From IMG/VR virus record IMGVR_UViG_3300010399_000217, positions 1 through 25,075 of that record: DNA of 25,075 nt; one strand, written 5' to 3'. Numbering within the stretch: position 1 is the first letter of the stretch; the number at the start of each line of letters is the position of its first letter. Source of the stretch: a virus. Below the pieces are notes generated by a model. The model searched no databases. It saw only the letters and a program-made list of their open reading frames with translations, and was not told the DNA's origin. Of the stretch, positions 9,799 through 19,843 are shown one piece after another. Both the position numbers and the translations under genes were made by a program.

Positions 9799-10173
9799 TC
9801 ATTTCTTCTTACGCCTTCTACGCTTCTTCTTAATCTTAGGTGGTACTATCCATCCTGGGTATTCTTTTGTGAGGTATTCATACGCTGCCTTAAGTAACTC
9901 GTGTCCGCTTCCAAGGCGGTGACGTCCGACAATTCGTCGATTACAGTATGTGCAAAGAAGTCCCCGAATTTGTCCCGTCCAATGATCATGGTCAACACAG
10001 AGCCTGCTTTTGAATTCGCTAGCTTTTCGTCGACATACGCCACAGCGTTCTTCCTGTTCCCGTAGTAAGACATCATACTGTTCCTCTGTTATGCCAAATC
10101 TTTTAATTAGATGACGAGATCGGGGACTGGGTTTAGCAGTCCCCATCTCTAAAGCCTTAGTCTTTTGGCTCAT
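9799..10173 (-). CDS. Recombination endonuclease VII
   Basis: 124 residues. Zinc-binding CxxC pairs stand at C44/C47 and C74/C77, with the active-site signature DHDH at 61-64 followed by G-Q-I-R-G-L-L-C, as in T4 gp49 and its smaller podovirus relatives. These His-Me finger enzymes cut Holliday junctions and branched DNA, clearing replication intermediates before packaging. The C-terminus is a strongly basic Lys/Arg tail (KIKKKRRRRKKK). The ATG overlaps the end of the upstream small gene by 17 bases, with GAAAGAG close before it. It takes the place that T7 gives to endonuclease I, next to the exonuclease. Confidence 0.9.
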   Translation of the reverse strand: MSQKTKALEMGTAKPSPRSRHLIKRFGITEEQYDVLLREQEERCGVCRRKASEFKSRLCVDHDHWTGQIRGLLCTYCNRRIVGRHRLGSGHELLKAAYEYLTKEYPGWIVPPKIKKKRRRRKKK

Positions 10174-10366: not shown

Positions 10367-11281
10367 TTAGTTATTATACACGACTTTGCCGTGTTTGTCT
10401 ACTTCTGTTATGAAACTTCCGTCTCTGCGTTGGGGGCGGCGGACAACCCTCGTAAGATAACGGGGCCCGTCGGAGTAGAGGAAGGTTCGAAGGTTCGGGA
10501 AACAGATATATTTGAATGGGCTATAGCTTGCTGTAACGCCCAGTTTAATGTTTCCGGACTGGCCGTCGGGTACTGTTTCGCAAGTGCAAGATGGAGGTCG
10601 ATCAAGAGCGACGATAGCTTTGTAAGCTGCGATGCGTTCTCTAATATGGTCTGGGCGGTAAGTATGCTCATATAAACACATGTGTCCTAGTTGTTTGTCA
10701 ATAGCGAGAATATATCCTCGATCCTTAACGCGGAGTAAAGGGTCGTCAATCGAAGCTGCAAGATAGCCGTCAAGTTGATCCAGATAGCCAAAACCGTCGT
10801 AAGGACGACCATTCGGGTCCACTTTGTCAAGGAGCTTATCCTTGAACTTGAGAAAGCTAAGAGTGGAAGTAGATTTAACATCAACCAAACACCCGTCAAT
10901 GATACAATCTCTGTGACCACTGATGCCGTCGAGAGTGAGTTCATCTTGCTCTCCTGTTACTTCGTGTCCACATGCTCTAGCCCATGTGATGGCCATTGCT
11001 TCTATTTGGTGTCCAAAAGTGAACTTGACCACTGCGGAAGGTTGCAGGGGCTCAGCAAGAAGTGGGGAATGTATCGAGTGCCACAAGTGACATGGGCACT
11101 TTGGGCCCATCTGGCTGAGACGAAGTCTAGGTACGCCTTTTCTTGTTCCGAACGCTCGTTCGAGTTGGAGGGTGACTTCCTTGGCGTACGTCTCTGCCAC
11201 GTCTCCGGTAAACCAACCTGTTCCGTCATTTTCTTTTAGAAACCTTTGTATGTCTGGTATTAGTGTTTCAATGTTTGGCAC
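10367..11281 (-). CDS. PD-(D/E)XK exonuclease (RecB/Cas4-like)
   Basis: 304 residues. Core motifs are in order: GHQIEAM (E94), GHRDCIIDG (D125), LVDVKST (D134, K136) and the helical QxxxY-type motif YLDQLDGYL (167-173). The upstream LRLSQMGPKCPCHLWH is the typical N-terminal signature of this phage exonuclease group. Cysteines at 62, 64, 232, 234 and 260 could hold an iron-sulphur cluster, but the spacing is not the textbook Cas4 pattern. Such enzymes degrade host DNA and resect ends for recombination, the role of gp6 in T7. The gene starts inside the end of the upstream small gene (22-base overlap) and stands beside endonuclease VII. Exact polarity and substrate cannot be told from sequence. 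Confidence 0.85.
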   Translation of the reverse strand: MPNIETLIPDIQRFLKENDGTGWFTGDVAETYAKEVTLQLERAFGTRKGVPRLRLSQMGPKCPCHLWHSIHSPLLAEPLQPSAVVKFTFGHQIEAMAITWARACGHEVTGEQDELTLDGISGHRDCIIDGCLVDVKSTSTLSFLKFKDKLLDKVDPNGRPYDGFGYLDQLDGYLAASIDDPLLRVKDRGYILAIDKQLGHMCLYEHTYRPDHIRERIAAYKAIVALDRPPSCTCETVPDGQSGNIKLGVTASYSPFKYICFPNLRTFLYSDGPRYLTRVVRRPQRRDGSFITEVDKHGKVVYNN

Positions 11282-11579: not shown

Positions 11580-11882
11580 TTAGTGGGAGGTCATCGCTCG
11601 GAACAGCGCACCCATCACCAGAATGTAAACCGGTGGAACGGTGGCAGCGGCGATGGTCCAGAGAATGTACTTCTGGACAAGGGTCAGGCGACCCTTCTTT
11701 TCGTCTTTCTTCTCCAAAGCCTTGAGAGCTTTGTCAAGGTCTTCCTTGAATTCCGGTACCTGACGCAGGACCTTGATGACTTCTTTCAGCGTCAGCTCAC
11801 CCTTACGGGTCTTCTTCTCTTTAGTCGGAGCCGTCTTTAGTTTATCGAAGAGCAGCTCCAACAACAGTGTTTCTGCCTTCAT
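11580..11882 (-). CDS. Small membrane protein with C-terminal transmembrane helix
   Basis: 100 residues from the ATG at 11882, 7 bases after AAAAAGGAG; a longer frame to 11918 lacks such a site and would run into a structured leader. The N-terminal 70 residues are charged and helical (DLDKALKALEKKDEKKGRLT), and the C-terminus holds one hydrophobic helix, YILWTIAAATVPPVYILVMG, followed by a short polar tail. A one-helix protein with a basic cytoplasmic domain could be a holin-like, antiholin or membrane-targeting protein. No endolysin is nearby, so I leave the role open. It is the first gene after the 2 kb structured RNA region, and its leader contains two competing hairpins. Confidence 0.75.
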   Translation of the reverse strand: MKAETLLLELLFDKLKTAPTKEKKTRKGELTLKEVIKVLRQVPEFKEDLDKALKALEKKDEKKGRLTLVQKYILWTIAAATVPPVYILVMGALFRAMTSH

Positions 11883-11903: not shown

Positions 11904-11967
11904 GGTGGGAGCTGACACGTAGCTCAGTAAGTTTTATCTACTTTGGCTACTTGTTTGCGCTCCCACC
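11904..11967 (-). promoter_or_regulatory. Long-range 9-bp stem in the leader of the membrane-protein gene
   Basis: GGTGGGAGC (11904-11912) and GCTCCCACC (11959-11967) are perfect complements. Inside them GTAGC/GCTAC (11919-11923, 11946-11950) and AGTA/TACT (11926-11929, 11939-11942) pair as well, giving a three-step rod. On the minus strand an extra G-U pair can extend it. It ends about 8 bases before the AAAAAGGAG site. It may be a processing site or translation control element. Confidence 0.55.
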
Positions 11968-11986
11968 CTAATAAGATTAAGGTGGA
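11961..11986 (-). promoter_or_regulatory. Competing hairpin at the end of the structured region
   Basis: On the minus strand TCCACCTTAAT pairs with ATTAGGGTGGGA with one bulged G and one G-U pair (11 pairs, 3-base loop). Its 3' arm is the same GGTGGGA strand that forms the 9-bp stem with 11904-11912, so the two structures exclude each other. The G-U pair exists only on the minus strand. Confidence 0.5.
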
Positions 11987-12218
11987 CGCTCGAACCGCGC
12001 GAGATATTTCAGAATTCGTGACACAGTGTTCATGACGCACATGGCGTGTTCCTCCTGCTAGAGTTACGTCTGTGGGTTAGGTGTGTCTGGTTCCTAAGCT
12101 CGTTCTTTCTACATGCTAGCACGCTAATCCGGCGCGCTCTTGTTGCGGGTTCGTGGACATTCATGCAAGGCGACTTACGTATAGAGGCTTTCCTTCGCAG
12201 ACCTCCTGCGCCATTTGT

Positions 12219-12246
12219 CTCAACTTCGGTCTCACCGCCTGTTGAG
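12219..12246 (-). other. Nested hairpin in the structured RNA
   Basis: CTCAAC (12219-12224) pairs with GTTGAG (12241-12246). Inside, CGGT (12227-12230) pairs with ACCG (12234-12237) over a CTC loop. Ten pairs in two helices separated by a 2/3 internal loop. Confidence 0.6.
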
Positions 12247-12267
12247 CGTATGCAAGTAATCCGTTTC

Positions 12268-12294
12268 AGAAGTGGGTCGTTAACCCTGCTTTCT
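12268..12294 (-). other. Hairpin with GGGT/ACCC tip, recurring motif
   Basis: GGGT (12274-12277) and ACCC (12283-12286) close a CGTTA loop, with AGAAG (12268-12272) pairing to CTTTCT (12289-12294) below. The tip recurs almost identically at 13671-13683, where the loop is CGTCA. Confidence 0.5.
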
Positions 12295-12637
12295 GTTTTG
12301 ATACCGACGTGAACGCTGTCTCACTGGATGTTCATAGAAGGCTCTCTTGACTACGCAATTCACCCACGTCCTCGCTCCCTACACGGGACCTGTTCACCAC
12401 AGGTTGACGGCTTTTGTCGTGATTGCTATCTAGCCTAATTGGGCTACATCACAGTAGTTCTTACTTCGGTTCCTTCCGATGTCGGAAGATTGACACCCAC
12501 CGATGGACTATCGGCAGTGCCCTTACCAATCTTTGATTGGCGTATTCATCCAACCAGTTTCTTTCTACTCGGTAGCTGTCCAACAACCAATAAGGTGACG
12601 TTCTGTTACGCGAAGGCTATACCTTTCGCTGCAGACC

Positions 12638-12676
12638 AATGCTCACGGTTGTCCAGCATTAGACCTAGTGAACCGT
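12638..12676 (-). other. H-type pseudoknot in the structured RNA
   Basis: AATGCT (12638-12643) pairs with AGCATT (12655-12660). The loop of that hairpin holds ACGGTT (12645-12650), which is perfectly complementary to AACCGT (12671-12676) beyond the stem. Two interleaved perfect 6-bp helices make a classic H-type pseudoknot. No protein-coding frame needs this arrangement. Confidence 0.6.
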
Positions 12677-12733
12677 CGGTCCTCCCTCAGAAGGAGGATA
12701 CGTAAAGGACTTGCTCTTGAGAGAGACTTACTC

Positions 12734-12762
12734 TGGAGGTGTGGTTAAGACCACGGGCTCCA
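12734..12762 (-). other. Two-level hairpin in the structured RNA
   Basis: TGGAG (12734-12738) with CTCCA (12758-12762) and GTGGT (12741-12745) with ACCAC (12750-12754) form ten pairs around a TAAG loop, separated by a small 2/3 internal loop. Confidence 0.6.
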
Positions 12763-12917
12763 CATTGCTGATGCATTTCGGCCATTCCTACTTCATACCG
12801 GGCTGTAGGCGACTCATACTAGGGCTGCGCTCGACACAGCATATTTCGGGTTGCACCCCTATGCACTACCACTGCGAACTCTAGCAATCCCTACGTCGTC
12901 AGGCGAGTTTCACCGCG

Positions 12918-12948
12918 TCGGCTCTTCGCCGAGTGGATTCGAACCACC
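12918..12948 (-). other. tRNA T-arm-like hairpin plus adjacent hairpin
   Basis: On the minus strand GGTGG-TTCGAAT-CCACT (12932-12948) reproduces a tRNA T arm: five stem pairs including a terminal G-U, a 7-base loop with TTCGA in the canonical place. It is followed directly by TCGGC/GCCGA (12918-12932) with a 5-base loop. No acceptor, D or anticodon arm can be drawn around it, so it is a T-loop motif inside a larger RNA and not a tRNA. Confidence 0.6.
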
Positions 12949-12961
12949 ACTGCCTGCCGTC

Positions 12962-13023
12962 CAACCTACTGCTCACAAAGTCTCCGCCCCGCGGAGGTGG
13001 GTCACGCTCCCACATGTCGGTTG
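12962..13023 (-). other. Closed multi-branch junction in the structured RNA
   Basis: CAACC (12962-12966) pairs with GGTTG (13019-13023) and encloses two directly adjacent hairpins: CTCCGC/GCGGAG with a 3-base loop (12982-12996) and GTGGG/CCCAC with a 7-base loop (12997-13013). The two inner helices abut without a spacer, as expected for coaxial stacking. Confidence 0.6.
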
Positions 13024-13330
13024 AAAAGATTGTCGCTAGCTTATGCTACCTAGTAACCCCGTGGCGTCACGGTTGACTATCGGCTACCCACTAAAGAGTG
13101 GACCGACGTCGAAGTCTGGCTTAGCATCCTTGATGACACTCTCCTTAGGAGATCAGGACTTACATGATGGTGTCTGCCATCCATACCTAGTACACACTAG
13201 GCTGTTGCCGTCGTCATCGGCTTCTCCGAAGCTAGGTTTTATATACCGGCTAATGAGACCGGTGTACTTACAACGACACATCCTCACTGCTATGTCTATT
13301 CGCTACCTGTGCAGTACCACCGTTTCGGCC

Positions 13331-13347
13331 GCACGTGTCGCACGTGC
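13331..13347 (-). other. Perfect 7-bp hairpin with 3-base loop
   Basis: GCACGTG (13331-13337) and CACGTGC (13341-13347) flank a TCG loop. It is one of the longest uninterrupted local stems in the structured region. Confidence 0.6.
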
Positions 13348-13663
13348 CTCCATGATTACGGGAGTGTCCCTGTCGGTCCTGCTAGATTACTTCGTCATCA
13401 ACGGAAGTAGCGAAGTCTCGCAAGTACTTTGCTGCCCGACGGATTAACGTGGCATGATCGGGACTAACTCCACGACATAGCAACAGACCACCACAAGGTG
13501 GGTGGGGTATCCTGCCAGCATCATCCCAGCAGGGTTCCGCTACGCATTTTCGCTACATTCACCCTAGACGTGGATCTCATTCCAAACCCGGCTACGGTCT
13601 CTTCCCGCCAGTTTAACCTGTGCGGTTTCTAACCCACTCTCCCCTTTGGACAGGGCAGGGCAA

Positions 13664-13719
13664 CATACTGGGGTCGTCAACCCATAGAGGCATGCTCAGA
13701 CGGTTTCCTCTTCAGTATG
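13664..13719 (-). other. Three-way junction in the structured RNA
   Basis: CATACTG (13664-13670) pairs with CAGTATG (13713-13719), seven perfect pairs. Between them GGGT/ACCC closes a 5-base loop (13671-13683), abutting the outer stem, and AGAGG (13686-13690) pairs with CCTCT (13707-13711). Together this is a complete three-helix junction. Confidence 0.65.
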
Positions 13720-13934
13720 AACCAAAATATGTGAGAGGCTTTACGAGCACCCTCTCTTGCCACAAGGGGACGTCCCAGTCGCGACTGGTGTGGGAGTATT
13801 ACACCGGGGACACTACTAATAATCCCATCATCGCCCTTACGGGGCGGGCTCTACTTGAGCTACGGTGCGTGCGGCCCACAAAGATTTTATCCTTGTTATC
13901 CGCAGTTGGCATGGGTTATAGATTAAATTAGTAA

Positions 13935-13989
13935 CTGACGCCGGGTCGGCCTGTGGTGACCATGTGGGGTTTGAACCGCCCGGCGTCAG
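13935..13989 (-). other. 11-bp stem with T-loop-like sequence near the 5' end of the structured RNA
   Basis: CTGACGCCGGG (13935-13945) and CCCGGCGTCAG (13979-13989) are perfect complements around 33 bases containing a GGTTCAAACC T-loop-like sequence (minus strand) and a TGG/CCA mini-hairpin. Acceptor-plus-T stems in a tRNA total 12 pairs, so this may mimic a tRNA minihelix recognised by tRNA-processing enzymes. It lacks room for D and anticodon arms. Confidence 0.55.
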
Positions 13990-13996
13990 CCATGTA

Positions 13997-14025
13997 CTAG
14001 AGCAGGAGTGCGGCCCTTGCTCTAG
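13997..14025 (-). other. Perfect 8-bp hairpin just after the SSB gene
   Basis: CTAGAGCA (13997-14004) pairs with TGCTCTAG (14018-14025) around 13 bases, starting 5 bases after the SSB stop codon. No T-tract follows, so it more likely marks the SSB mRNA 3' end or the processing point of the downstream RNA than a terminator. Confidence 0.55.
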
Positions 14026-14030
14026 CCATC

Positions 14031-14546
14031 TCAGAAGACACGCTCAGGCTGCGACGTAACTTCGTCTACCTTTGCTTTCTCTTCTTCGTTCTGGTAATCC
14101 GTTTGAGGATTAAAAGGAACTAAGTTATCAACACGAACACCCTCTAGTCGAGCAGCAACTGCTTTGCCACCTCCGGGTGTTGCATGAGGGTACACTTCAA
14201 GTACGAGGGAAAGATCACTGCCATTGCCAATAAGAACCCCGTCAGCAAGGGGAGTACCATCAGCCATAGCGACAGTGGGTGGAGCGAATATGAGGGTCTT
14301 GATTTCTCCATTCCGCAGCTTGACGTCCTTCTTGGGTGGACGCTTGAAGCGCATGTAGTATCCATCTTCATCCTTCATCATGGTATTCTTCAGACCCTTG
14401 CTCTGAAGTTCACGAAGAACTTCTAGGTCTTCAGGGATCGGGTAGAGTTCGGTTGACCAATCTCCAAACTTATTCAGTCGTTGGACGTGGGTCCATCTAC
14501 CTTTACCACGTACCGTTATCCTTGTAGTCTTATCGTAATTAGCCAT
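14031..14546 (-). CDS. Single-stranded DNA-binding protein
   Basis: 171 residues from ATG 14546; a start at 14561 (176 residues) is possible and neither has a perfect ribosome-binding site. The pattern GRWTHVQRLNKFGDWSTELYP, LKNTMMKDEDGYYMRFKRP, ADGVLIGNGSDLSLVLEVY and RLEGVRVDNLVPFNP is that of the T7-like phage SSB group, an OB-fold protein with an acidic C-terminal tail (here NEEEKAKVDEVTSQPE, ending in aromatic Phe as in T7 gp2.5). Such proteins coat template strands and coordinate polymerase with primase-helicase. It overlaps the upstream small gene by 8 bases and is the last gene before the 2 kb structured RNA. Confidence 0.8.
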   Translation of the reverse strand: MANYDKTTRITVRGKGRWTHVQRLNKFGDWSTELYPIPEDLEVLRELQSKGLKNTMMKDEDGYYMRFKRPPKKDVKLRNGEIKTLIFAPPTVAMADGTPLADGVLIGNGSDLSLVLEVYPHATPGGGKAVAARLEGVRVDNLVPFNPQTDYQNEEEKAKVDEVTSQPERVF

Positions 14547-14715
14547 TCTTATTAATCTCATCCACTTCTACGACTTCAATATCGAAGGCTTCATCATAAG
14601 TCTCACGAACATAGTCGTAGGCCATCTGCTCGGCTTCGTCTTTGGTCTCCGCTTGGAAGGTCATAGCACCGCCATGACGCAGGGAATAATCAAATTCAAC
14701 GTTCCAGTCTTTCAT
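14539..14715 (-). CDS. Small acidic hypothetical protein
   Basis: 58 residues from ATG 14715, with AAGGAAG 5 bases before it; an in-frame TTG at 14733 would lie upstream of that site and is less likely. Composition is acidic (ETYDEAFDIEVVEVDEINKNG) with an alternating beta/alpha look. The N-terminal half, MKDWNVEFDYSLRHGGAMTF, predicts strands. No family recognised. It sits between polymerase and SSB, coupled to both neighbours by overlaps. Confidence 0.75.
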   Translation of the reverse strand: MKDWNVEFDYSLRHGGAMTFQAETKDEAEQMAYDYVRETYDEAFDIEVVEVDEINKNG

Positions 14716-17623: not shown

Positions 17624-17924
17624 TTTCTTGTTCTTTCTTTTCTTCAGGGATGTGCAGTATTTGCACCAAAGTATTCTGTTGCCAGAACTTCTGGCCAATA
17701 TGCCTTTCGATAACTCCCCGGATGTTGCACCGTAAGAGAACGGAAATACCTTGCTTGGATAGTAACACGTATTCGTCCAATTCGGAAGTACTTCTTCCGT
17801 TCGGAATGGAAGCAAAGACTGTTCCGAGTTTCATTCCCGGAAAGTGGTCGAAGCCTCCACCGCTGTTGCCCGACTTGGGTATGCGGACATCGTCGATGTC
17901 GATGATCTCAGCTGTGGCTTTCAT
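17607..17924 (-). CDS. Hypothetical protein
   Basis: 105 residues. The ATG overlaps the phosphatase stop (ATGA) and follows GGAGGTAAAGGT, a strong ribosome-binding site. It begins with a beta-rich segment (MKATAEIIDIDDVRIPKSG), has a Gly-rich loop, then a mixed alpha/beta domain and a Lys/Glu-rich C-terminus. I do not recognise a family. Tight coupling to the metallophosphatase suggests a shared function, though neither partner's substrate is known. Confidence 0.8.
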   Translation of the reverse strand: MKATAEIIDIDDVRIPKSGNSGGGFDHFPGMKLGTVFASIPNGRSTSELDEYVLLSKQGISVLLRCNIRGVIERHIGQKFWQQNTLVQILHIPEEKKEQENGTSA

Positions 17925-18679
17925 ACCTTTACCTCCAAGAATTCTAACGCCGTCAACTGGGTGTCGTCAAATACACCGATGACACTACGGCCAGTCTTAT
18001 AGGCCCATACGTCAAGGTTGGTACGTCCGCCGCCCTTACTACCGGGCTGCCATACGTGCGGACCATCGGAGAACTGGTGATGACCATGCACAACGTGCTT
18101 GCCTCTCCAGCCTCCGTGGTCGGCGGGATGGTATAACATCCACTGCATCTTGTGGAGCAAGTCCTCCTTCTTGGATGGGAGGTTCATGCCCCATTGAGGG
18201 ATGCCAGCGTGGACATAGACTTGCTTCTCTGCTTCGTAGTAGAGAGGCAGCGATGCCATCCATTTAACATGGTCTGATGGTACGAGGCTGTAGTAAGCGT
18301 CTCGTCTACCACGTGCGTTGTAAGTAACGGGTAGGTGTCCGTAACTGTAGAGAGTCTTATCTCCACCGTTACCGAACCACCAATCAGGATCAAGATCATG
18401 TACGATACTTTCGACAGCCATAGCTTCGTGATTGCCTTGGAGGCATATGAAACGATCTTCGATGAAGTCTTTTTGTTCCTTCATTAGACGTTCAATTATC
18501 TTATTACTGTCGGGTCCTCGGTCGATGTAATCGCCTAAGGTAATAATCGTATAGTCATACGGCTCGTTGCCGTGTTTACTCATTGGAGAATTATCATCTA
18601 CGTGATCATGAATTCTCTCAATGGCTTTGTCAAGTAAGTCGTAGCGCCCGTGTAGGTCGCCTATTACATAATATTTCAT
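17921..18679 (-). CDS. Calcineurin-like serine/threonine metallophosphatase
   Basis: 252 residues with the full PPP-type metal centre: GDLHG 7-11, GDYIDRG 49-55, GNHE 82-85, VHAG 156-159 and HGH 198-200. It is close in length and layout to lambda protein phosphatase (221 residues) and bacterial PrpA/PrpB. Such enzymes use two metal ions to remove phosphate from Ser/Thr/Tyr residues; in phages they may reset host signalling or act on nucleotides. The start ATG follows AAGGGATAAACC. The downstream hypothetical gene is coupled by ATGA. No kinase is visible in the window. Substrate unknown; all catalytic residues appear present. Confidence 0.9.
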   Translation of the reverse strand: MKYYVIGDLHGRYDLLDKAIERIHDHVDDNSPMSKHGNEPYDYTIITLGDYIDRGPDSNKIIERLMKEQKDFIEDRFICLQGNHEAMAVESIVHDLDPDWWFGNGGDKTLYSYGHLPVTYNARGRRDAYYSLVPSDHVKWMASLPLYYEAEKQVYVHAGIPQWGMNLPSKKEDLLHKMQWMLYHPADHGGWRGKHVVHGHHQFSDGPHVWQPGSKGGGRTNLDVWAYKTGRSVIGVFDDTQLTALEFLEVKV

Positions 18680-19003: not shown

Positions 19004-19176
19004 CACTCGGGCTCCCGAGCTTCGAAGTTGTCCTTCTGAAACGGAGAGGCTCTTAAGCCTTTCTCCATCTGGGAGGGCTTTTGGTGACCCACCCTGTACT
19101 GTTCAAGGGGTACGACTTCGGTCCAAGTCTGCCCGTGAACTTCCTTCTTGACCAACACCTCGATTACCTTCGGCAT
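19003..19176 (-). CDS. Small hypothetical protein overlapping the UDG tail
   Basis: 57 residues, MPKVIEVLVKKEVHGQTWTE onward. The ATG at 19176 has an excellent site, GGAGG with 7-base spacing, although it lies inside the C-terminal coding part of the uracil-DNA glycosylase gene (74-base overlap). The stop overlaps the next ATG (TGATG), so the chain UDG - this gene - helix-turn-helix gene is coupled. It has a beta-rich N-terminus and a polar C-terminus, with no known family. A UDG-inhibitor or partner role cannot be shown. Confidence 0.7.
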   Translation of the reverse strand: MPKVIEVLVKKEVHGQTWTEVVPLEQYRVGHQKPSQMEKGLRASPFQKDNFEAREPE

Positions 19177-19843
19177 CGTCGAGCCTCCAGTTGATTGGTT
19201 GTCTGCCTAAGTCAACTAACTTATCGTTGATGGTTGTGAATATACGCGACCCGATGAATGGATTTCGAGAGTTGGACCCGCCTCGAGGTGAGGGATGTGA
19301 TGTGGTGACCACCGATGACTTCGTGACATCGACACAGTCGATATAACGTTTGGCCACCGAGCCGAGAAAGACAAAAACGATCCCGCCTGTGTTGGACAAT
19401 ACCTCAAGAACTTCACGTGTAAGGAAGCTGTATTCGTCCCAGTCATGGCTAAGTGATGCATTTGCTTTACAACTTGGGATAGCGTTCCAGAGAAGTACGC
19501 CTTGGTCTGCCCATTTATGTAGATCTCCGCTCGGGGGATCGGGATAGTGTGTATCCGACGAATATTCTTTAAAGATCTGTTGTAACGTCTTCGGGTAATC
19601 CTCCGCTTTAATGTAATCTGGGATAGAGAACGCGAGACCGGTAGCCATTTCTTTGTCCGGATAAGGGTCTTGACCGACAATGACAACGCGGACATCTTCA
19701 GGCTTGAGTTGTTGAAGACTCCTGAATAAATCAGACCGTTTAGGATTGTAAACATGACCCGCCTTCTCCATGTCTTTGAGTCGTTCGTTACAGACCTGCC
19801 ATTCGCCGGTCTGCCAATACTTAAGTTTCCAAGGATAAATCAT
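19103..19843 (-). CDS. ung: Uracil-DNA glycosylase, family 1
   Basis: 246 residues. Signature motifs: GQDPYP 57-62 with catalytic Asp59, GVLLWN 115-120, and HPSPRG 183-188 with catalytic His183 and the DNA-intercalation loop. The fold ends, as usual, at PINWRL (216-221); about 25 further residues (GNRGVGQEGSSRADLDRSRT) form an unusual polar tail whose codons are shared with a small downstream gene. The enzyme removes uracil from DNA, repairing dUTP misincorporation or cytosine deamination, so this phage presumably does not use uracil-DNA. The ATG overlaps the primase-helicase stop (ATGA), coupling repair to replication. UDG is uncommon in podovirus genomes. Confidence 0.93.
   Translation of the reverse strand: MIYPWKLKYWQTGEWQVCNERLKDMEKAGHVYNPKRSDLFRSLQQLKPEDVRVVIVGQDPYPDKEMATGLAFSIPDYIKAEDYPKTLQQIFKEYSSDTHYPDPPSGDLHKWADQGVLLWNAIPSCKANASLSHDWDEYSFLTREVLEVLSNTGGIVFVFLGSVAKRYIDCVDVTKSSVVTTSHPSPRGGSNSRNPFIGSRIFTTINDKLVDLGRQPINWRLDDAEGNRGVGQEGSSRADLDRSRTP

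Follow-up and report, generated by a model that had tools for sequence, protein, structure and literature searches.

What occupies the gap of about 2.1 kb in the replication region of the IMG/VR phage record IMGVR_UViG_3300010399_000217, whose 25,075 bases we analyzed as a whole and call the window? The original prediction proposed a giant structured non-coding RNA of about 2.1 kb, read leftward and devoid of protein genes. The replication region of the window is T7-like, with a polymerase, a primase/helicase, a gp2.5-like SSB, and a Cas4-type exonuclease, and the predicted coordinates of the gap were right: the SSB gene stops at 14031 and the next gene, encoding a small membrane protein on the minus strand, starts at 11882 (Table 1). 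The same leftward block also holds minus-strand genes for a uracil-DNA-glycosylase superfamily protein (19103-19843), a NinI-like phosphatase (17921-18679), and a recombination endonuclease VII (9799-10173). ARAGORN detected no tRNA in the window, Rfam yielded no family at E ≤ 1 for the whole window or at E ≤ 10 for the gap alone, and the window had no match in an annotated phage collection. The longest sense (minus-strand) ORF in the gap (14030-11919) has 44 codons, and a 134-codon antisense ORF (13043-13447) was rejected as a gene, given that stops interrupt its frame in the relative L002. The expected lack of protein genes therefore held for long frames, conserved ones included, but not for a conserved mini-gene of 21 codons.

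Table 1 Features of the gap and of its borders in the window.
Feature	Position	Strand	Evidence or content
SSB-like gene (gp2.5-like)	14031..14561	-	phrog_112, E=4.6e-7; upstream border of cassette
Variable 5' part of gap	13728..14030	-	Not common to L002/L003 (blast limits)
Conserved core, giant RNA, ~1.8 kb	11940..13727	-	Identity to four relatives; 45 supported helices
10-bp helix 13685-13676 / 13448-13439	13439..13685	-	96% paired in five sequences
Multibranched domain, closed by 13055-13049 / 12823-12817	12817..13055	-	100% paired, 3 covarying pairs
T-arm domain	12897..12959	-	Covarying stem P1, T-arm, acceptor-like hairpin, D-arm-like element
Domain closed by 13-bp helix 12472-12457 / 12314-12300	12300..12472	-	100% paired, five sequences
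Shine-Dalgarno AGGAGG of mini-gene	12051..12056	-	Sequence
Mini-gene MCVMNTVSRILKYLARFERPP-stop	11977..12042	-	Conserved, 21 codons, C-terminus Pro-Pro-stop
Hairpin TCCACCTTAA TCTTA TTAGGGTGGGA containing Pro-Pro-stop codons	11961..11986	-	Compensatory A-T to G-C change, L087/L089
Small membrane protein, 100 aa	11580..11882	-	Lys/Glu-rich N-terminal part, one C-terminal hydrophobic helix
Cas4-domain-type exonuclease	10367..11281	-	phrog_1990, E=1.8e-21, present in relatives; downstream border

Relatives of the locus were gathered with the polymerase as query, which yielded 73 loci in viral contigs; the SSB protein, used as query for close relatives, returned none, and scanning with a DNA pattern of the RNA retrieved L002 and L003 only. 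Every locus showing the whole region has the gene order polymerase, SSB, gap, small membrane protein, exonuclease, except that the membrane-gene profile had no hit in one or two loci, and the SSB-like gene adjoins the polymerase gene in every locus long enough to show it. Removal of near duplicates left 55 non-redundant gaps, all of them between SSB and exonuclease, 1.2-3.7 kb long, and raised in G+C. A second, independent search performed afterwards provided 10 more close loci with the full region, which were held out; gap, membrane gene, and mini-gene were present in all 10. The picture differs in 16 more distant relatives, most with 37-43% polymerase identity and including the cultured phage CRP-13: SSB and exonuclease are separated by only 0-833 nt (54 nt in CRP-13), and no membrane gene, mini-gene, or giant RNA was detected in any of them. 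RNA, mini-gene, and membrane protein thus occur jointly or are all missing, which indicates that a single clade acquired or retained the cassette as a whole. Judging from the sequences, the carriers are one clade of uncultured soil phages with genomes of ~50 kb, and the family of folded RNAs, 1.2-3.5 kb long, is fast-evolving.

Searching bacterial and archaeal genomes identified no host and gave three weak polymerase matches in MAG contigs. The distant polymerase relatives L152 and L153 lie in MAG contigs labelled Candidatus Dependentiae and Altiarchaeales, which are probably binned phage contigs. In five loci (L016, L030, L064, L068, and L069), similar inserted DNA separates SSB from RNA within the first kilobase of the gap; it has ORFs of ~175 codons and is probably an extra protein gene. 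Because the similarity among these loci in that kilobase may partly reflect such an inserted gene, we left it out of the RNA evidence.

The fold was assessed by aligning the core of the window with those of four relatives (L002, L003, L087, and L089), to which it is 58-68% identical in nucleotides over most of its length; in the alignment used for the consensus structure, the identity over the core is 58-62%. The consensus structure contains 162 pairs with compensatory support, compared to 61 ± 6 (maximum 71) for 16 column-shuffled alignments, i.e. 16 standard deviations above the shuffled alignments of these five sequences; the alignments are not structure-aware and the shuffles ignore phylogeny, which leaves such counts partly conservative and partly approximate. 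The consensus energy is -728 kcal/mol, compared to -490 ± 15 kcal/mol for the same 16 shuffled alignments, and 45 helices combine compensatory support with at least 85% of cells paired. A test with 3 sequences gave 105 compensatory pairs versus 49 ± 7 after shuffling, and a second subfamily gave 67 versus 21 ± 3. Alignment folding in 250-nt windows returned mean z values of -3 to -5 for three subfamilies, whereas polymerase coding DNA of the same phages, treated alike, showed no such signal (mean z about 0 to -1). In contrast, the folding energy of a single sequence, a 1000-nt piece of the window, was ordinary (z = -1.0, with 2 of 20 shuffles equally good). The original prediction had taken nested hairpins in one sequence as its argument, and had named covariation across homologues and folding relative to shuffles and to coding DNA as checks; the fold was borne out by covariation, by alignment energies, and by the comparison with coding DNA, while the energy of the single sequence proved uninformative. 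As to extent, the gap is as long as proposed, but its first 300 nt (14030-13728) are variable and only the ~1.8 kb that follow (13727-11940) are conserved. On these comparative grounds, the minus strand of the window from 14030 to 11940 specifies a giant structured RNA.

Several parts of this putative RNA are well delimited. The variable 5' part contains an 11-bp hairpin (13989-13979 / 13945-13935), and the region of the 10-bp helix contains the invariant GTTAATCCGY. The stem closing the multibranched domain reads TACTAGG/CCTAGTA, TACAAGG/CCTTGTA, or TACACAG/CTGTGTA in different phages, and the T-arm domain sits inside this domain. Further downstream, the domain closed by the 13-bp helix encloses nested covarying helices (12455-12443/12333-12323 and 12437-12432/12343-12338). 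Two motifs recur across subfamilies in the gaps of many loci, namely TTACATGG, located 95-250 nt before the mini-gene (11 exact sense copies and 1 antisense copy in the gaps), and GCCRGATWAGC near the 3' end; their recurrence suggests a shared 3' domain.

The original prediction had anticipated both the tRNA-like T-loops and the direction of reading. The gaps contain 70 T-arms with a perfect 5-bp stem and a TTCRA loop in sense orientation and none in antisense, a sense density of 6.2 per 10 kb compared to 0.03 in shuffled gaps (~200-fold enrichment), and the same pattern was found outside the gaps 13 times in 676 kb, counting both strands (0.1 per 10 kb). Folding is better and covariation greater for the sense than for the antisense strand, although the latter also folds well. 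Since the neighboring genes point left, the T-arms are found in sense orientation only, and the sense strand folds better, a leftward reading of the predicted RNA from the minus strand is supported.

In about 20 gaps, two further elements come after the T-arm, first an acceptor-like hairpin closed by a loop and then a tRNA-Leu-like D-arm, e.g. TGTTGCAGGTTCAAATCCTGC GGGGGA CAGC TCCCCC TGGCGCAATTGGTAGACGC in L043. This module is a predicted circularly permuted tRNA mimic with the same order of elements as bacterial Y RNA. Among nine examples, 93% of cells are paired and the covariation score is 0.575, versus 0.173 for shuffled and at most 0.153 for slid alignments. A covariance model of the module (R1) also identified it in many gaps outside the training set, among them L039 (49.8 bits), L036 (42.5), L041 (38.4), L015 (37.5), and L022 (35.8); matches in L076 and L043:68-165 were left out because they overlap ordinary tRNA genes. 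The window, equally outside the training set, has an R1 match at 12952-12901 (23.9 bits, E=2.3e-5). Here, stem P1 (12959-12953 / 12903-12897) is 95% paired with 7 covarying pairs in five sequences, and the T-stem of the T-arm GGTGG-TTCGAAT-CCACT (12948-12932) is 100% paired with 4 covarying pairs, followed by an acceptor-like hairpin, CGGC-GAAGA-GCCG, and a D-arm-like element, CGG-TGAAAC-TCG. In the subfamily of the window, the D-loop lacks GG and the acceptor-like hairpin is missing from L002 and L003. The window copy can therefore be viewed as a degenerate module, in which T-arm and basal stem covary strongly while the acceptor-like hairpin is not universal.

The Rfam model of YrlA (RF02553) aligns to the same element in L043 (29.4 bits) and L029 (22.4 bits), in both cases below its gathering score of 69, and has no match in the window. 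None of 31 phage records contains a Ro60/Rsr (TROVE) gene, although the host may encode one. A Y-RNA-like element in the gap of L068 (L068:2778-2871) is nearer to true YrlA than the modules of the other loci: its D-arm (GGGGGAGTAGCTCAGTGGTAGAGC) is of the ordinary class-I type, and its closed acceptor hairpin is long. A further tRNA-shaped hairpin lies 3' of the membrane gene of the window (11578-11505, minus strand), with a 7-bp acceptor-like stem (GGCCCTG/CAGGGCC), a D-arm, an anticodon-like arm, a GGTTCGAATCC loop, and a broken T-stem; its position is taken by a plain hairpin in L002 and L003.

The mini-gene, the permuted module, and the link to a membrane protein were all absent from the original prediction. 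Near the 3' end of the gap, a mini-ORF led by a Shine-Dalgarno (SD) sequence and ending in Pro-Pro-stop is present in 55 of 55 gaps when GTG and TTG starts are allowed. With a strict ATG start it is present in 48 of the 55, compared to 6 of the 1284 small ORFs with an SD sequence outside the gaps, and 1.3% of shuffled gaps contain a Pro-Pro-stop mini-ORF. The stop codon is TAA in 54 of the 55 and the residue before Pro-Pro is R or Q in 44, whereas all four codons are used for the first Pro and both AGR and CGN for the Arg before Pro-Pro. This freedom of synonymous third positions, the use of both Arg codon boxes, and the near-constant TAA imply that the peptide is under selection. The conserved CCWCCTTAA near the 3' end was also considered as an anti-Shine-Dalgarno mimic and rejected, as it corresponds to the Pro-Pro-stop codons with free third positions. 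In E. coli, termination was blocked by a C-terminal Pro-Pro in every genetic context tested, with stop-codon cleavage and ssrA tagging as a result (PMC3834316). The mini-gene fits an SD-led short ORF with an arrest-type C-terminus conserved at the peptide level, and its predicted product is expected to stall the ribosome. In nearly all loci the membrane gene comes immediately after the mini-gene, usually at a distance of 10-125 nt. Where identified, the product of the membrane gene is ~100 residues long and combines a part rich in Lys and Glu with a single hydrophobic helix at the C-terminus; a homologue of the same place and make-up is found in nearly all of the 55 loci and in the 10 held-out ones, and searches of Pfam and PHROG assigned the protein to no family.

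Taken as a whole, the RNA is best read as a new giant RNA of phages that is akin in kind to GOLLD and ROOL but belongs to neither. These two giant phage RNAs have no known function; GOLLD self-assembles into a 14-mer cage, and oligomerization has been shown for both. Like GOLLD, the soil-phage RNA is giant, ornate, structured, and encoded by phages, but it is longer (gaps of 1.2-3.7 kb), contains a permuted closed tRNA mimic rather than a real tRNA, has an arrest mini-gene and a membrane protein attached, and sits between SSB and exonuclease instead of beside a tRNA island. With ROOL it has in common a large size, phage origin, a complex multibranched fold, and the lack of a known protein partner, but protein genes are linked to it and it is about three times as long as a 659-nt ROOL example (PMC12286853). 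Many GOLLD members exceed 800 nt, some with tRNAs in a linker (PMC12286853), and the original assignment to a GOLLD/ROOL-like class of greater length was thus apt. Rfam models of GOLLD, ROOL, and OLE gave no match in the window (E ≤ 1), in the gap (E ≤ 10), or in nine relatives at the gathering threshold. The likeness to YrlA, clear in about 20 relatives, consists of a T-arm, a loop-closed acceptor hairpin, and a D-arm on a basal stem, in permuted order; YrlA, however, is an RNA of 90-150 nt, whereas the soil-phage module is one part of an RNA exceeding 1 kb. OLE works with the membrane protein OapA and resembles the soil-phage RNA as a large structured RNA with a membrane-protein neighbor, but the hosts differ and the soil-phage protein has one helix and no detected family. 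OLE RNA is found at the membrane (PMC11332333). No catalytic core of a group I or II intron was matched in Rfam, and the gap lies between genes, not inside one. Among open-licence papers, we found no description of this RNA family.

From the structure established by comparison, we infer a function for the cassette of giant RNA, mini-gene, and membrane protein: rather probably, the RNA acts in trans as a scaffold ribonucleoprotein (RNP). It would be read leftward together with the replication operon, fold, and work during infection as GOLLD and ROOL may do. The tRNA-like module would be an element of tertiary structure and, by analogy with bacterial Y RNA, could dock host tRNA-binding or tRNA-modifying enzymes or PNPase. 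A ribosome on the mini-gene would pause at Pro-Pro-stop, within the final hairpin of the RNA; the pause would keep the folded RNA apart from the message downstream and determine the output of the membrane protein, which probably anchors or partners the RNA.

As the mini-gene and membrane gene follow directly, the gap could instead act in cis as an oversized leader, whose fold and Pro-Pro-stop peptide merely attenuate or switch the membrane protein and exonuclease, with no trans role. TnaC-type leaders, short arrest peptides acting as a switch for a downstream operon, work likewise, and the short distance from mini-gene to membrane gene fits this main rival, as does the location of the mini-gene stop, where stalling of a ribosome would open a conserved hairpin. 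The mini-gene resembles TnaC and YbeL-PP in being an SD-led short ORF before an operon with C-terminal proline(s) at the stop that interfere with termination (PMC3834316 for termination). It differs from them in that only the class of the preceding residue (mostly R or Q) and Pro-Pro-stop are conserved, in lacking a sensor motif, and in following a giant RNA. Moreover, 1.2-3.7 kb exceeds by far any attenuator known to us, and the covariation at the 3' end is matched by that of the conserved multibranched domains and T-arm modules located over 800 nt upstream of the mini-gene. We give the cis leader a modest chance.

Other readings of the gap fare less well. The position beside the polymerase and SSB genes and the good folding of the antisense strand would suit a conserved fold that acts as DNA, e.g. 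a single-stranded replication origin or packaging site, but the strictly sense T-arms, the better folding and greater covariation of the sense strand, and a mini-gene predicted to be translated at the end of the gap make this very unlikely. We find it hardly credible that the gap is a decayed tRNA island, or that it contains circularly permuted tRNA genes processed into working tRNAs, even though the T-arms are canonical, the D-arms are tRNA-Leu-like, and a normal tRNA-Leu gene is present elsewhere in some of these phages: ARAGORN finds no tRNA or tmRNA with a free acceptor stem in the window or in the gaps of the scanned loci, the permuted order with its closed acceptor hairpin leaves no free acceptor end, the stems still covary rather than decay, and most of the RNA is not tRNA-like, with P1 continuing into a larger junction. 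An undetected protein gene, or random intergenic sequence with hairpins arising by chance, would agree with the ordinary energy of the single sequence, but is already refuted by the excess of compensatory pairs, the short sense ORFs, and the antisense frame broken in L002.

In summary, we favor a scaffold RNP acting in trans. That all members of a clade of phages with ~50-kb genomes have retained a structural RNA 1-3 kb long probably reflects strong selection for it. Two attached features, the arrest mini-gene found in every member and the tRNA-Leu-like or Y-RNA-like mimic, suggest tests of function, and the cassette, being present or absent in sister phages, is a natural unit to delete or express. 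A bolder possibility, which we consider improbable, is that the RNA is a ribosome-capturing machine: a ribosome arrested at Pro-Pro-stop would stay tethered, the tRNA mimic would engage the ribosome or the host tRNA, tmRNA, or decay machinery, and the membrane protein would hold the complex at the membrane. If this is true, the cassette would encode a phage RNP that sequesters or specializes host ribosomes.
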